From the NCBI RefSeq assembly GCF_034424215.1, contig NZ_CP139960.1, forward strand, positions 4,526,001-4,590,000: a DNA stretch of 64,000 nucleotides, read 5' to 3'. The notes beneath the pieces are model-generated. The model did not search any database, was not told the DNA's origin, and saw only the letters and a program-made list of their open reading frames with translations. This document shows, in pieces, positions 13,954 through 31,338 of this stretch (position 1 is its first letter; each line of letters opens with the position of its first letter). Source of the stretch: Niabella yanshanensis. GTDB taxonomy: Bacteria; Bacteroidota; Bacteroidia; Chitinophagales; Chitinophagaceae. A program made the position numbers and the translations under genes.

Positions 13954-14192
13954 AGTTTGTTATTGGGTTACAAAGTAGTACACAGGCTCATTCGAATTTC
14001 TCCCTGTTTTCCATGATTTTTCTAAAAAGCCAAACTCAATTTTGGGCAGAGGTTTTTCCAGGCTAAAAATAATCAAAAGAATTTGCCTGCTCATCCCCTG
14101 ATCTAGTGATGGTTTTTTTATCAATATCCTGTTTTTCGGGGATAATAAAAAGCTTATGGCGGCCGCATTTTTACCGAACAAAAAGTATAAAG

Positions 14193-15845
14193 ATGAAAAC
14201 ATTTTTAATAGTATTCTTGATGGTATCTGCTTTTATAGCAGATATAAATGCCCAGGCTCCGGCAATTGAATGGCAGAAGGCGTTGGGAGGAACGAGGGAA
14301 GACGGTGCGTACGCCGTTCAGTCAACTATCGACGGAGGATATATTATTGCCGGCAGCACTAATTCAACTAACGGGGATCTTTCCGGTGTGCCTTCGCAGT
14401 TGAACGATGATTGCTGGATCATAAAAGTAAACTCAGCCGGAGCTATAGAATGGCAAAAGAAGTATGGTAGTGGCGGTCTTGATATAGTAAATGATATTAA
14501 GCAAACTTCGGAGGGGGGCTATATATTTATTGGAAGGAATAACGCTGTTACAACACCCGACGGAGATGTTACAAGCGGGCAGGGCAGTTGGTTGGTGAAA
14601 TTGTCAGGAACCGGGAATATTGAGTGGCAGGCCAGCCTGGGTATAACGGGTCAGTCGGTTGAGCAAACTGTTGATGGAGGGTATGTAGTGGGAGGTAGCA
14701 GTTTTGTTGCCAGGTACTCTGCGGCAGGTGCCCGTCAATGGATTACTAATTTTCCATACGCTATAGTAGCAATAGATGCGACAACTGATGGCGGTGTGGT
14801 AGCCACCGGAGAGGCCACTACCAGCAATCGCTCTGATATAAAAGTAGTGAAGTTAAACGGCGCGGGTGTAATTGTTTTGGATAAAGAGTTTGGGACACTG
14901 GGTTATGAAGGAAGCAATGATATTTTGCAAACTACAGATGGAGGATATATCGTTGTGGGTTATGCTTCAGGTGTGGGTGAGGATCATGTGCATCATTATA
15001 AGGGTAGCGCGGATGCCTGGCTGGTGAAGTTGAACAGCAACATGGATACAGTTTGGACTAATGCCATTGGCGGTAGTAATTATGATATTGCCCGTAAGGT
15101 AATACAGGTGAATGGCGGCTATATAATAGCCGGTGAAACCGGATCCACAGATGGGGATGTAAGCGGCTATAAGGGTGGCGCCAAAGATGCCTGGGTGTTT
15201 AGATTGGATGATAACGGGAATTTGATTTGGCAGAAATGTTTTGGCGGTAGTGCTAATGATATTTTCTATGATGTATGCCAGGGATCGAACGGAGGATATC
15301 TGGCTGCCGGTCATACTTATTCCAATGATGGCGACATTTCAGGGGCACATGGCTCGGCAGATCTATGGATTGTAAAGCTGGATGAAGACCAGGTTTTGCC
15401 TGTAAGGTTTGGCGTAGTAAATGCAACCCTTAAAGAAAGCATGTTAAGTGTTAACTGGACGACATTATCAGAAACAAACTGTAGTCATTATATAGTAGAG
15501 GCTTCTGCAAATGGCTCATCCTTCAAAACGATCAGCGATAAAATTTTTACCAGGGCCTCGGAAGGCAACTCATATACCCCCTTACAGTACCGGTTTACGC
15601 GGAGCTATACCATATTCCAGGCCATGACATTATTGTTGCTGGGGCTGTCAGTATTTAGCAAACGTAAATTCTCACCGGCAGCATGCCTCATCATTATAAG
15701 CGGCATCCTGATCATCTCCTCCTGTAAAAAGAGCGGCAGCGATATCGCATATAATAAAGATCATGAATTATACATCAGGGTGGTACAGGTTGATGAGGAC
15801 GGTACGAAAAGCTATTCGGAAATTATAAAGGTGGTGCAGCAATAG
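14193..15845 (+). CDS. Exported beta-propeller-like repeat protein with a split FN3 domain and internal lipoprotein-type signal
   Basis: From ATG 14193 the product is 550 residues with a signal peptide ending D-I-N-A-Q; the in-frame ATG 14106 would bury this signal and is rejected. Residues 22-400 are about seven 50-55-residue repeats of the form W-Q-K-x-x-G-G ... D-G-G-Y-I-x-A-G ... S-x-D-G-D-x-S-G ... D-A-W-x-x-K-L, which predicts a propeller. Residues 401-470 start L-P-V-R-F and contain L-S-V-N-W-T-T-L-S-E-T-N and V-E-A-S-A-N-G, the FN3-like domain that usually precedes type IX sorting tails. The domain is then broken by a hydrophobic helix (about 474-489), K490-R-K492, a second helix (495-510) and I-S-S-C511-K-K-S, before the last strands Y-I-R-V-V-Q-V-D-E-D-G resume (about 525-550). 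No type IX tail follows. Function unknown. Confidence 0.85.
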   Translation: MKTFLIVFLMVSAFIADINAQAPAIEWQKALGGTREDGAYAVQSTIDGGYIIAGSTNSTNGDLSGVPSQLNDDCWIIKVNSAGAIEWQKKYGSGGLDIVNDIKQTSEGGYIFIGRNNAVTTPDGDVTSGQGSWLVKLSGTGNIEWQASLGITGQSVEQTVDGGYVVGGSSFVARYSAAGARQWITNFPYAIVAIDATTDGGVVATGEATTSNRSDIKVVKLNGAGVIVLDKEFGTLGYEGSNDILQTTDGGYIVVGYASGVGEDHVHHYKGSADAWLVKLNSNMDTVWTNAIGGSNYDIARKVIQVNGGYIIAGETGSTDGDVSGYKGGAKDAWVFRLDDNGNLIWQKCFGGSANDIFYDVCQGSNGGYLAAGHTYSNDGDISGAHGSADLWIVKLDEDQVLPVRFGVVNATLKESMLSVNWTTLSETNCSHYIVEASANGSSFKTISDKIFTRASEGNSYTPLQYRFTRSYTIFQAMTLLLLGLSVFSKRKFSPAACLIIISGILIISSCKKSGSDIAYNKDHELYIRVVQVDEDGTKSYSEIIKVVQQ

Positions 15846-15886: not shown

Positions 15887-17782
15887 ATGAGATATATAAA
15901 AAGAAGGTATTGCTTGTTGTATCTTTTATTATTTCCTGTGATGCTTCCAGCACAGAGTGGTTCACAAACCTTCGACAGGTCGGGCACATTTACGGTACCC
16001 GCAGGCATCACCAGGTTGTATGTGGAAGCCTGGGGCGGAGGTGGTGGCGGTACCGGCTCAACTATAGGAGCCGCTAACTACCGGTATTCGGGAAGCGGCG
16101 GTGGCGGTGGTGGCTTTTCCAAAGGATATATTACGGTTACTCCGGGAAGCAGTATCAATGTAACCGTGGGTGCTGGCGGAGGACCAACATTGGCGGGCGG
16201 TAATTCTTCGGTGGAAGGAATTGTTGCCGGCGGTGGTCAACCGGCATGGTTTGAGAGAATTGGAAGCGCTGCTGTAAACACTTTTGGAGGAGCCGGTGGT
16301 ACCGGTACATTTCGCGGCGGTAACGGAGGCTCCGGCGTAAGGTCAGATCCTGGACAATCCTTTGGCAATGGAGGAGGTGGCGGCGGCTCAGCAACCAGAA
16401 CAGCGAATGGTATGGCTGGAAATGGACCTAATGGTGGTAGTGGCGAGGGTAACGGGGGAAGCGGCACTGTCGAGTATATTGTTTATACGCAACCCTCAAC
16501 CGATGGTGCAGCGCCGGGCGGAGGTGGCGGTAACTACCGGAGTGGTGCCAACGGCCGGGTCATTATAAACTGGACTGCACCGGTAACCGCTGAAATAAGT
16601 AAAACAGATATCACCTGTTTCCAGGGCTCTGGTGCTGCCCGTGTTACAGCATCGGGAGGCGATGGCACTTATACTTACTTATGGACGCCAGGCAATATCC
16701 GGACGGCCGATATCAATAATCTATCACCCGGAGAATATACCTGCACTATCTCAAGCGGATATGAGCAAACAACGGCATCCATTATTATTCCTGAGGGACC
16801 GCAAATGCCTGGCCTCCTTCCTTCGGGAAGCAGTAGCGCTACTGTTAATCAAACTGCCGATGGTAATTACAACTATTACTTATCCGGATGTAATACCGCT
16901 ATCGCTATGATCTACACCACCAACAGTTCTAACCCTTTAAGCGGCTCTACTACTGCAAGAGTTTGGGTGGACGAAACGCAGAGCCGCAGGTATGTAAGAC
17001 GGCACTATGAGATTCTTCCTCAGCATAATGCGTCAACGGCCACGGCCAGGGTTACCCTGTATTTTAGCCAGGAGGATTTTGATAGCTATAATGCTACAAA
17101 ACCCAAACTTTTATTGCCCCTGGATGCCGGCGACAGCAGGAATTATAAAGGCAATATTTATATCGAAAAAAGAAGTGGCAATGGTGACGGAGTAATCGAT
17201 CATTATACAGGCGAGCCGGTAACCATATATCCACAGGAGGTAGTATGGGACAACGCAGCCAATCGCTGGGAGGTTGTTTTTCAAACAACGGGGTTTAGCG
17301 GATTCTGGTTAAAGGCAGGAGATGAGCCTATAGTGCTGCCGGTAATCTTTGGATCAATAGCTGCATTTATAAAAGACAGGATACTGACCGTAAACTGGGT
17401 ATCGCAAAGTGAAACCAATAATGCGGGGTTCCTGGTAGAAGCTTCCACAGATGGAACTCATTTTACAGCTATTAGCAATATAATACCCAGCCAGGCAAAA
17501 GAAGGTAATTCAGATACGCCCCTCCAATACAGCTTTGCAAGTACCGGAATTGCATGGGGGTCAATGCTGCTTGTGTTATCATTAGTGAGCGGTTGCAACC
17601 GAAGGCAACGGAAACTGCTGCAACTGATGATCCTGTTGACCCTATTTTCGGCTATTGCCTGCAATAAGTCTTCTAATGTTCTTTTGGATCACAACCGCCA
17701 TGACCTTTTTGTAAGGATACTGCAAACCGATAAAGACGGCGTGAAGACCTACTCCAAAACCATCAAAGTAGTAAAACAATAA
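15887..17782 (+). CDS. Exported glycine-rich/SprB-repeat protein with the same split FN3 and internal lipobox
   Basis: The 631-residue product has a signal peptide (K-R-R, hydrophobic core, L-P-A-Q). Residues about 28-225 form a glycine-rich domain (T-F-T-V-P-A-G-I-T-R-L-Y-V-E-A-W-G-G-G-G), seen in secreted Bacteroidota proteins. About 229-305 is one SprB-type repeat (D-I-T-C-F-Q-G-S-G-A-A ... G-D-G-T-Y-T-Y-L-W ... I-N-N-L-S-P-G-E-Y). About 306-485 is a beta-rich domain with R-H-Y-E-I-L-P. From about 487 the L-P-V-I-F FN3-like domain begins. Like the preceding gene, it is interrupted by helix, N571-R-R-Q-R-K576, helix and A-I-A-C592-N-K-S, then F-V-R-I-L-Q-T-D-K-D-G and the end I-K-V-V-K-Q. 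It starts 41 bp after its neighbour and is probably cotranscribed. SprB and glycine-rich domains suggest a surface or matrix protein; the role is not known. Confidence 0.85.
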   Translation: MRYIKRRYCLLYLLLFPVMLPAQSGSQTFDRSGTFTVPAGITRLYVEAWGGGGGGTGSTIGAANYRYSGSGGGGGGFSKGYITVTPGSSINVTVGAGGGPTLAGGNSSVEGIVAGGGQPAWFERIGSAAVNTFGGAGGTGTFRGGNGGSGVRSDPGQSFGNGGGGGGSATRTANGMAGNGPNGGSGEGNGGSGTVEYIVYTQPSTDGAAPGGGGGNYRSGANGRVIINWTAPVTAEISKTDITCFQGSGAARVTASGGDGTYTYLWTPGNIRTADINNLSPGEYTCTISSGYEQTTASIIIPEGPQMPGLLPSGSSSATVNQTADGNYNYYLSGCNTAIAMIYTTNSSNPLSGSTTARVWVDETQSRRYVRRHYEILPQHNASTATARVTLYFSQEDFDSYNATKPKLLLPLDAGDSRNYKGNIYIEKRSGNGDGVIDHYTGEPVTIYPQEVVWDNAANRWEVVFQTTGFSGFWLKAGDEPIVLPVIFGSIAAFIKDRILTVNWVSQSETNNAGFLVEASTDGTHFTAISNIIPSQAKEGNSDTPLQYSFASTGIAWGSMLLVLSLVSGCNRRQRKLLQLMILLTLFSAIACNKSSNVLLDHNRHDLFVRILQTDKDGVKTYSKTIKVVKQ

Positions 17783-17799: not shown

Positions 17800-18936
17800 A
17801 TGAAAAAAACTATTATTCAGCTAGCCATGGTGGCAGTGCTATTCTCCTGTACAAAAACAGATCAGGTACCTGAAGAAAATGCATTGAAATTGCAACCAAT
17901 AGGAAATGAAAAACTGGTGATCCAAGATGGTAAAACCAGGGAAGTGGATGGCACACTGCTTAAGCAGCTCCCGGTGAACACCCATATCAATGAAGAAATT
18001 GAAAAGCATCTCAGTGAAATACTGGAACCCGTTCGTAACCTGTTACAAAAAGCAATTGAAAGTGACGGAACCGGTAATTTTAAGAGATATGAAGAAGCTG
18101 TAGCATATGCAAAGAGTCTAAAGGATCCCGGCCAGCAGATCCGGGCGGTAGAGCGATTGAAAAAAGAATATTATCCCTTCATAAAAGATCTTTGGGAAAA
18201 AGCTGCTATAGATGAAAGAAATTATCAGCAGGCTATACTAAATGTTTTTCCAGAGAACCTGCGAAAGGGTGTCGTGTTTCAGGAGTTCCTGAATTTTACG
18301 ATTGGACCTTCGGAAAAACCAGAACCACCTATTCCACCGGCCCCACCCGCACCCGAAAATATATGTATTGATGTACATGACTTTATGCAGGGCGCTTTTT
18401 GGCGAGACGGCCTGTTGGTGGGTGGCGTAAGAAATTCAATCAGACCAACGGATGGTAACTGCGCTGCGTTTGCTACAGTAACTACTACCGCTATTAGCGC
18501 AGGTGCTTACACGGGCTGCTCCTGGCTACTTAATCGCATCGCGCTTCCGGGTACATTCCCTATTGATGCAAGACCAATACGGTATAAGAAGGCTATTAAC
18601 TGGACCGCCAATGCAACAGCTGTTGCTGTTTTGGGAGGCGCCTGGTCTACGATTGCTTATACCATCAATGCAAACACTGATAAATTTACAGATCCCGGTG
18701 GAGAGATCTATACCGCTGTAGCCCCGGTAATTTTCGTTTGTGTACTACCCAAGTCTGCTTCTGTTAGCGATGAACAATTGCATAGTAAAGTACAGTTGAA
18801 TACATTGAATTTCGGTGGAGTGGCTTACGCCCAGTCTAAGAGTATATTGATATTGTCTCCTGCTTTCTCTACGGCCACATCCACTATTAGCATAGCGCCG
18901 GGGAAGTGGACCGCCTGTGAAGAGGAAGGCAAATGA
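17800..18936 (+). CDS. Lipoprotein of unknown function with a proline-rich linker
   Basis: A 378-residue product with an N-terminal lipobox L-F-S-C (Cys17) followed by T-K-T-D. About residues 60-165 are helical and charged. A short linker of P-E-P-P-I-P-P-A-P-P-A-P lies near 172-185. The C-terminal half contains A-T-V-T-T-T-A-I-S-A-G-A-Y-T-G-C-S-W and several hydrophobic strands. I do not recognise a family. It lies 17 bp after the glycine-rich protein gene and 23 bp before the next lipoprotein gene, all in one direction, so it is probably part of a five-gene operon. Confidence 0.75.
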   Translation: MKKTIIQLAMVAVLFSCTKTDQVPEENALKLQPIGNEKLVIQDGKTREVDGTLLKQLPVNTHINEEIEKHLSEILEPVRNLLQKAIESDGTGNFKRYEEAVAYAKSLKDPGQQIRAVERLKKEYYPFIKDLWEKAAIDERNYQQAILNVFPENLRKGVVFQEFLNFTIGPSEKPEPPIPPAPPAPENICIDVHDFMQGAFWRDGLLVGGVRNSIRPTDGNCAAFATVTTTAISAGAYTGCSWLLNRIALPGTFPIDARPIRYKKAINWTANATAVAVLGGAWSTIAYTINANTDKFTDPGGEIYTAVAPVIFVCVLPKSASVSDEQLHSKVQLNTLNFGGVAYAQSKSILILSPAFSTATSTISIAPGKWTACEEEGK

Positions 18937-29886: not shown

Positions 29887-31338
29887 TTAAAATTTTTGCC
29901 ACCATAGTTTAGTGCCTTTGGTATCGCCGCCAATGGCCTGGGCAGCGGCTTCTTTGTTAGCCGCATTGGTATTGGTTTCCACTACAGGGTAGGTTAGCCT
30001 GGCAGGCACCAATGCTACACTGGGGTCGAGTGAGCCTGCTTGCGGCGCTATAAATAAATCGGCGCCATCGGGCTTTTTAAAGTTGAGCCGCACTCTCTCA
30101 AACCATGCCTGTAATCCTTGCATGTACATAGCAATCCATTTTTGTGACCCCAGGCTGTTTTTCCAGTTCGCACTATTGAAAGGAACCGAATTGATGTAAG
30201 TAGTGGCAGCTGCATCAGCGACATTCCAGAATTTCATATTTTCTTTGATAGCTGCGTTGTAAAAAGAGTCAGCAGTACCTCCCGTGCTCATGCCGCGTTG
30301 GGCTGCTTCTGCTAAGAGAAAGTTTACCTCAGACGCCGTCATTAAAATGCCCGGGAAATCAGGTGCATATACTCTTGTGCCCGGAATAGAGTATTTCTGG
30401 GCATCGCTTGCTGTTTGTGAACCCAAACCATAAGGCTTTCCAATAATGGTCTGCGATTCGGTAGCGCGCCGTGCATAAATTGCTAACCTGGGGTCGTTTA
30501 GAGATTGCATAAAATCTACCATCGTTTTGCTGACTACAAATTCAATAAGCGGACGGGCAAAGTCATTGTATGGATATTGGTTAGGGGCCTGACTTGTATA
30601 AGGAAATAATGCATCATCTGTCGATGCTACAATTACCCCATTTTTAATAGCCGCTTCAATCGCTGTTTTGGCTTCACCAGCTTTTACATCACTCATGCGC
30701 ATAGCAATTCGCAGGATCAGGGAATTGGCCAGTTTTTTCCATTTAGTGATATCCCCCTTATAAATTACATCTCCAGAAGCAAATGATGGCTTTTCAGGAT
30801 CTAATGCAGCCTGGCATTCATTTAGCTTTCTGATGAGGTCACTATATATTGTGGCTGCATCATCGTATACCGGCGTAGCATTTTCTTCTCCAATTGCCTC
30901 GCTGTAAGGTATGTTACCGTAGGTGTCGGCAAGGATATGGTATATCCATACGCGTATAATACCTGCGATAGCATTCTGATTAGCTACCGGTTCGGGAATA
31001 GGTGCATTTTCATTAATAATCGTAATCTCCTTTAAGTCTTTTAAAGAACGGCTGTACAAAGACCAAAGCGTGGAATTACTCCCTTCGTCCAGATTATATC
31101 TACTGTTTTCTTCTTTATCGGTAGCGGCCCAATATTGAGCATAGTGCATGCCGACTCTATTGTTGACAATCGAGTTGTAAAGAATATCTGAAGCACTTTT
31201 TTCAGCAGATAAAATTAATTGTTCCGGTGTTGCAACAGATGGTTTTACTGGATCTGTATTTAATGTATCGAATTTGCTACATGAAAAAATAGCGAATGAG
31301 ATAGCAAGTAAAAATATTTTATTATGAAGTTTGTTCAT
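29887..31338 (-). CDS. SusD/RagB-family nutrient-binding lipoprotein (SusD_2 type)
   Basis: A 483-residue surface lipoprotein that captures a ligand and forms the lid of its SusC-like transporter. The lipobox is A-I-F-S-C followed by S-K-F-D-T-L-N-T-D-P, the classic start of SusD_2 proteins. It also shows G-I-I-R-V-W-I-Y-H-I-L-A-D-T-Y-G-N-I-P-Y-S-E-A, the TPR-core signature, and E-V-N-F-L-L-A-E-A-A-Q-R-G. It is 45 bp after the SusC-like gene in the same direction. The ligand is not deducible because no glycosidase, peptidase or regulator is adjacent. Confidence 0.95.
   Translation of the reverse strand: MNKLHNKIFLLAISFAIFSCSKFDTLNTDPVKPSVATPEQLILSAEKSASDILYNSIVNNRVGMHYAQYWAATDKEENSRYNLDEGSNSTLWSLYSRSLKDLKEITIINENAPIPEPVANQNAIAGIIRVWIYHILADTYGNIPYSEAIGEENATPVYDDAATIYSDLIRKLNECQAALDPEKPSFASGDVIYKGDITKWKKLANSLILRIAMRMSDVKAGEAKTAIEAAIKNGVIVASTDDALFPYTSQAPNQYPYNDFARPLIEFVVSKTMVDFMQSLNDPRLAIYARRATESQTIIGKPYGLGSQTASDAQKYSIPGTRVYAPDFPGILMTASEVNFLLAEAAQRGMSTGGTADSFYNAAIKENMKFWNVADAAATTYINSVPFNSANWKNSLGSQKWIAMYMQGLQAWFERVRLNFKKPDGADLFIAPQAGSLDPSVALVPARLTYPVVETNTNAANKEAAAQAIGGDTKGTKLWWQKF

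Follow-up and report, generated by a model that had tools for sequence, protein, structure and literature searches.

Single C-terminal tags carried by many unrelated cargo proteins, as is the module described here, include MYXO-CTERM with its myxosortase, GlyGly-CTERM and PEP-CTERM, in the account given by PMC11980579. MYXO-CTERM also has a helix and a basic cluster like those of the module and, according to that source, an invariant cysteine. As described there, however, the MYXO-CTERM motif is followed by one helix only and then a basic end, whereas the module cysteine follows the second of two helices and has a folded tail after it; MYXO-CTERM is a functional parallel with its parts in a different order. 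The name of NF033207, midcut-by-XrtH, suggests a cut in mid-protein by a membrane protease, and on this likeness of name alone it too was compared; one of 69 modules matches it (E 0.043), and no exosortase was found in the genome studied here. BcpT was considered as a parallel and rejected, being, as far as PMC9308784 describes it, an ordinary predicted lipoprotein that is activated by other proteases.

The surface lipoproteins of Bacteroidetes, in the description offered by PMC5080379, share with the module a lipobox, a cysteine and a lysine after the cysteine, and the best surface-export signal (LES) of Capnocytophaga canimorsus is given there as C-X-K-(D/E)2-X. They differ in that the signal of the module is internal, lying near the C-terminus and behind a membrane re-entering helix. 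Module proteins also differ from ordinary signal peptidase II substrates, starting with a signal peptidase I signal instead. T9SS type A cargo has the same FN3-like domain in the same place on the same kind of cargo, and both elements are C-terminal and present in multiple copies; the Niabella proteins, in contrast, stop close to the point at which a T9SS tail would start, and have a hairpin instead.

The closest named family is NF058595 of NCBIfam (release 20.0), 'invert_tail', a model of 113 positions named 'lipo-invert putative C-terminal anchoring domain'. At E<=0.1 it is matched by 34 of 69 modules (best E 2.2e-4), the first copy in the window being unmatched, and when 20 modules were scanned singly 10 matched, and none of the scores seen exceeded 19.0 bits, where the cut-off is 37; by that cut-off the module is not a member. 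No match extends beyond profile positions 6-88, and most cover 25-75, chiefly the hairpin and the cysteine. They stop at the cysteine or a little past it, which by our estimate leaves about 40 profile positions, as compared with 39-40 residues from the cysteine to the end of the module. The name implies the same idea as the module, a likeness judged from name and match ranges, and name and layout suggest that the curators have seen this kind of thing. The initial annotation had spoken of a new anchoring mode. Since NF058595 resembles the module below its cut-off the kind is partly named already, and this softens the claim to novelty. A literature search on the NF058595 name and related words gave nothing relevant, and among the matches listed for searches on the lipobox, T9SS loss, Niabella and C-terminal tags we recognized no description of the module.

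Two module genes in the window

The window is a stretch of 64,000 nucleotides of the Niabella yanshanensis genome (contig NZ_CP139960.1), and the features of interest are collected in Table 1. The reading frame of the first gene spans 14106-15845 (+ strand), with the ATG at 14193 as the likely start and a product of 550 aa. Its C-terminal 149 residues (15396-15842) were read residue by residue, and run from LPVRF...LQYRF through a hydrophobic stretch, TIFQAMTLLLLGLSVF, to K490-R-K492, and then through a further hydrophobic stretch to I-S-S-C511-K-K-S and LYIRVVQVDEDG...VVQQ. The FN3-like domain split by a hairpin and an internal lipobox, which had been proposed for this gene from the window alone, is present residue by residue, and the basic cluster, second helix and Cys511 have the positive n-region, the h-region, the small residue at -1 and the cysteine of lipoprotein signals. 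The three lipoprotein starts with which the motif had been compared are likewise in the window: C-T-K-T (in the gene at 17800), C-T-K-S, and C-S-K-F (Cys at 31281, minus strand). The cargo of this gene matches NF047494 with an E-value of 2.5e-10 (39.7 bits, below that model's 400-bit cut-off) and the TIGR02608 delta-60 repeat at E 0.25 only.

The adjoining gene, 15887-17782 (+ strand), has the same C-terminal layout, with A-C-N-K-S at the cysteine, and its cargo consists of a glycine-rich domain and an SprB repeat. The cut given for its signal peptide was placed by eye, and the scripted choice is a Gln four residues downstream. Directly after both module genes, gene 17800-18936 looks like that of an ordinary N-terminal lipoprotein (C-T-K-T); its product matches neither Pfam nor NCBIfam at E<=1.

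Table 1. Features of the two module genes (positions in the window)
Feature	Position	Strand	Evidence
N-terminal signal peptidase I signal of the first protein, MKTFLIVFLMVSAFIADINA, then Q (Q-rule type)	14193..14252	+	
Exported cargo, repeats resembling SBBP beta-propeller	14253..15395	+	NF047494 match
FN3-like domain, first part (LPVRF ... LQYRF)	15396..15605	+	alignment, AF2
Hydrophobic helix 1, predicted to run from periplasm to cytoplasm	15606..15656	+	AF2, alignment
Basic cluster K490-R-K492, cytoplasmic side predicted by the positive-inside rule	15660..15668	+	
Hydrophobic helix 2, ending in lipobox I-S-S	15669..15722	+	AF2, alignment
Invariant Cys511 in C-K-K-S, predicted lipidation site	15723..15725	+	alignment
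Predicted 40-residue C-terminal lipopeptide	15723..15842	+	AF2
Last strands of the FN3-like domain, inside the predicted lipopeptide	about 15768-15842	+	AF2
Signal peptide of the second module protein, by-eye cut after LPA before Q	15887..15952	+	
Second module copy (gene 15887-17782)	17336..17779	+	profile, AF2
Invariant Cys of the second copy (A-C-N-K-S)	17660..17662	+	

Distribution of the module

The N. yanshanensis genome (5.54 Mb, one contig) has 18 module matches, of which 15 are intact (nearly full-length and stop-free) and three are decayed. The cargo upstream of the intact copies is varied and includes propeller-like repeats, a glycine-rich domain with an SprB repeat, and a sugar dehydrogenase, a label taken from the Pfam matches of its relatives. 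A profile built from the 15 intact copies hits 15 of 17 Niabella genomes between 2 and 63 times each (E<=1e-5), counts that may include fragments; at the same threshold the other two Niabella genomes, G007 and G016, have no match. The module is a recurring family across the genus, on a scale that the initial annotation could not have seen from the window. The homologues keep the hairpin rather than having random sequence at the insertion point, which would have spoken against that annotation.

Outside Niabella we found six genomes with one to three module copies each (G059, G060, G061, G283, G324 and G705). Two of at most 288 non-Niabella genomes in the family sample and one of 394 other genomes in the class sample carry it, with 9-13 candidates scored per genome, and the module seems rare outside Niabella.

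Conservation of the lipobox and hairpin

An alignment of 92 copies was assembled from the 15 intact N. yanshanensis copies, 73 from a separate search and four from the genome searches. Outside this count are c16-c18, the decayed N. yanshanensis copies, together with L069, which has a frameshift, the partial L130, and L175 and L156, which the script had missed; when read separately, these last two both have the cysteine, S or A at -1 and lysine at C+2. The lipobox cysteine is present in 92 of 92 copies. It is preceded by S (54), G (21), A (15), R (1) or C (1), making S, G or A in 90 of 92, and position C+2 is K in 87, R in four and D in one. These proportions are retained when the set is thinned at 60 % identity to 75 sequences, with the cysteine in 75, G, A or S at -1 in 73 and lysine in 71. 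The 8-column loop between the helices has 2-5 K or R residues in every copy (mean 3.5) and an acidic residue in two of 92, and the median length from a conserved tyrosine to the cysteine is 48. There is no second conserved cysteine in the alignment, and therefore no disulfide partner.

The copies are 27-46 % identical to the window copy and are best conserved in the strands after the cysteine. Mean pairwise identity is 54.2 % in these strands, 46.6 % in the first FN3 part and 18.5 % in the hairpin, so that it is the character of the hairpin that is kept and not its sequence. The layout is not a product of chance, because the cysteine is invariant and is accompanied by S, G or A at -1, lysine at C+2 and the basic loop.

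For comparison, a strict pattern applied to 0.92 Mb of window and locus DNA yielded 33 N-terminal lipoprotein signals (32 distinct). The residue at -1 in these is S in 17, G in eight and A in eight, although the pattern demands G, A or S there, and the spacing between the last basic residue and the cysteine has a median of 15, against 17.5 in the module, the spacing in the ordinary set being limited by the pattern as well; since the pattern constrains both features, only positions from C+1 onwards can be compared freely. Lysine at C+2 occurs in 87 of 92 modules and in 15 of the 33 ordinary lipoproteins (Fisher p 7e-9), and elsewhere in the linker of the module it occupies 98 of 1196 positions (8 %). 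An acidic residue within C+3 to C+5 accompanies the lysine in 60 of 92 copies, so that the acidic residues of the LES are partly kept. Because the module lysine is at the LES lysine position, in C-X-K-(D/E)2, the destination is probably the cell surface.

N-terminal signals and LspA

A strict script assigned to 12 of the 15 intact N. yanshanensis proteins a signal peptidase I signal with Gln after it, consistent with the Q-rule as PMC5837995 presents it, and the other three look alike by eye. Among the 73 proteins from the separate search, 39 are of the Gln type and six are of another signal peptidase I type; no signal was found in 28, many of which look like incomplete frames. In none of the 88 module proteins, many of them incomplete, was an N-terminal lipobox found.

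The LspA gene is present in N. yanshanensis and in 22 of 23 genomes overall, the two LspA matches in each of G003 and G012 being pieces of one gene. Three related Niabella have a second LspA-like gene: L205 (in G011), L214 (G016) and L215 (G007). The extra copy was considered as a marker of the system and rejected, two of its carriers (G007 and G016) being without a module match.

Predicted structure

The modules of the two window genes were modelled by AlphaFold2 (69 and 57 sequences), with mean pLDDT values of 87.0 and 87.1. In both, the 10-residue means are 91-98 over the two FN3 parts, the strands after the cysteine included, and fall to 65-84 in the hairpin and about 60 in the stretch just after the cysteine. 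The segments that flank the hairpin come together in one FN3-like sandwich, a packing judged from the model confidence and the fold match, and the hydrophobic segments, for which burial in a globular core had been the competing expectation, form separate helices in the two models.

The best Foldseek match, a modest one, is the Ihog FNIII domain (E 6.7e-4, TMq 0.50, rmsd 8.0, 154 gapped columns); the Fn3-like protein 3mpc is matched as well (TMt 0.69, E 5.9e-3). No Pfam model fits the module well, and a sequence search of the PDB gave no convincing relative (best E 0.39). At the E<=0.1 level two of 69 copies match Pfam fn3 (PF00041), both weakly, the better at 0.031. The matches to F5_F8_type_C (29-30 of 69 copies, best about 2e-4) and to LPXTG_anchor (six of 69) were set aside as cross-matches of a beta-sandwich and of a helix respectively, in both cases by judgement. 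On the predicted models the domain is an FN3-like beta-sandwich.

Relationship to T9SS and possible exchange of anchors

The best matches from other genera, within both the family and the order, extend over the first FN3 part alone, and 12 of 12 homologues read from other genera (15 loci) have no hairpin; these run from the E-strand region into 'YYRL.Q.D.DG' and then into a tail resembling by eye a T9SS sorting domain. Our survey of T9SS comprised SprA, the translocon, and the type A tail. None of the 17 Niabella genomes, three of which (G003, G012 and G013) are 72-83 % complete, gave a SprA match, whereas strong matches are present in seven of seven same-family genomes without a module match (G017-G021, G022 and G031). 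The tail model has 0-2 matches per genome in 16 Niabella, whereas each of five sister genomes has 60 or more, and two of the five have at least 150. Neither TIGR04183 nor PF18962 matches the two window proteins at E<=1, and at E<=0.001 there are no matches in the N. yanshanensis genome.

The module is nevertheless not tied to the loss of T9SS. SprA is found in all six of the module-bearing genomes from outside Niabella, and the tag can thus coexist with T9SS, while G007 and G016 match neither the module nor SprA. In a tree of LspA from 14 Niabella these two are nested in the genus beside G011, which has six module matches, and the module was therefore probably lost later there, although the tree comes from a single short protein and its outgroup branches are long. 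In two of the six genomes, G060 and G705, the SprA match falls into two neighbouring pieces of a single open frame, which suggests an insert of about 110 bases.

The sugar dehydrogenase of N. yanshanensis (c07), which ends in the module, provides a view of how anchors may be exchanged. A relative in G017, 66 % identical, has a plain FN3-like domain and a tail scoring 19.7 bits with PF18962 (cut-off 27); one in G019, 50 % identical, has the same arrangement with a tail at 31.4 bits, above the cut-off; and one in G022 (L199), 53 % identical, has an N-terminal lipobox and is without the FN3-like domain. With the module, a T9SS-type tail and an N-terminal lipobox on relatives, one kind of enzyme has three anchors. 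Matches to the c07 enzyme at E<=1e-40 occur in five of the 24 genomes searched. In G012 a module-bearing sugar dehydrogenase is spread over three frames (L201-L203), possibly by sequencing error.

Proposed mode of action and alternatives

We consider it likely that the C-terminal module anchors its cargo to lipid, and probably sorts it to the surface, by being cut by signal peptidase II and holding the cargo through a docked lipopeptide. The predicted parts of this model are the topology, the lipidation and cleavage, the docking, the surface location and the loss of the hairpin from the cargo. The N-terminal signal peptidase I signal would export the cargo. The FN3-like domain, of the sort that precedes T9SS tails in related genera, is broken before its last strands by the hairpin, in which helix 1 would lead to the cytoplasmic basic loop and helix 2 would serve as an internal lipoprotein signal. 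Lgt, LspA and Lnt would then lipidate the cysteine and cleave the chain in front of it, and a 40-residue lipopeptide bearing the last strands would result; these would pack on the remaining domain, so that the cargo would be held non-covalently on a lipid anchor. In Niabella, which gave no SprA match, the module would serve in place of the T9SS sorting tails. The sorting or anchoring role first suggested for the split domain is supported.

As long as the hairpin stays on the cargo, the cargo would be retained in the inner membrane. A fuller version of the model is rather doubtful: signal peptidase II behind the hairpin and a second protease in or before helix 1 would remove the hairpin completely, the two FN3 parts would remain associated as a split domain, and the docked lipopeptide would display the cargo at the cell surface, a mode of display that would have taken over from T9SS in Niabella. 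A signal-peptide-degrading or a rhomboid protease is a possible candidate for removing the leftover hairpin. An exosortase as the missing protease was rejected after the search with PF09721, which has no match in 15 of 16 Niabella genomes, N. yanshanensis included, and one weak partial match in G011. A dedicated linked gene was sought by clustering 751 frames from 75 loci and was rejected, no family but the module itself extending beyond eight loci; two neighbour families reach eight, one of them sigma-factor-like by eye.

It is unlikely, in our view, that the cysteine is lipidated but the chain left uncut or rarely cut, the protein being held by hairpin and lipid together. In the ordinary lipoprotein pathway lipidation does precede cleavage, and the FN3-like fold would stay covalently whole; against this, the residue at -1 is S, G or A in 90 of 92 copies, as in a cleavable lipobox, and the cargo would be left in the inner membrane, unlike that of relatives with T9SS tails or N-terminal lipoprotein signals. 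Less probable again, and very unlikely, is that the hairpin alone anchors the protein and the cysteine has some other role: two hydrophobic helices and a positive loop are indeed found in 92 of 92 copies, but the single invariant cysteine has no partner, and it sits at the lipobox position with a small residue before it and lysine two after.

That three of the 18 N. yanshanensis copies are decayed, and that the T9SS tail is gone, might suggest that the hairpin is a remnant, or arrived by chance, in a useless domain that is decaying in a genus without T9SS. This we find scarcely credible, and it is already contradicted by the pattern of conservation, since the cysteine is invariant, the lysine nearly so and the basic loop maintained across copies with as little as 27 % and at most 46 % identity to the window copy, and the strands after the cysteine are the best-conserved part.

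The module suggests a route by which a lineage without T9SS could keep showing T9SS-type cargo, with a lipoprotein signal placed inside the domain beside the old tail. Should the two parts remain docked once cut, a protein could be held by a lipid anchor to which it has no covalent link. The model also supplies a hypothesis of function for C-termini that lack annotation and are found many times over in a Niabella genome, and it makes anchor exchange testable on a single enzyme.

Some variants of the hairpin deserve mention. Other folds with the same hairpin were looked for and rejected as a general feature, 124 tails being of the module type and five others, in DNA biased to module loci. Four of the five look like truncated or variant copies. 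Helix 1 is otherwise poorly conserved and has a glycine at column 82 in 74 of 92 copies, with threonine in the first copy of the window and glycine in the second (module residue 75); judging from the sequence, this could be the site of a second protease or a point of helix packing. The fifth hairpin tail is L110, a + strand frame of 221 aa in which the first half has diverged and the hairpin, the cysteine and the last strands are intact, and from its sequence the first FN3 part may be replaceable.
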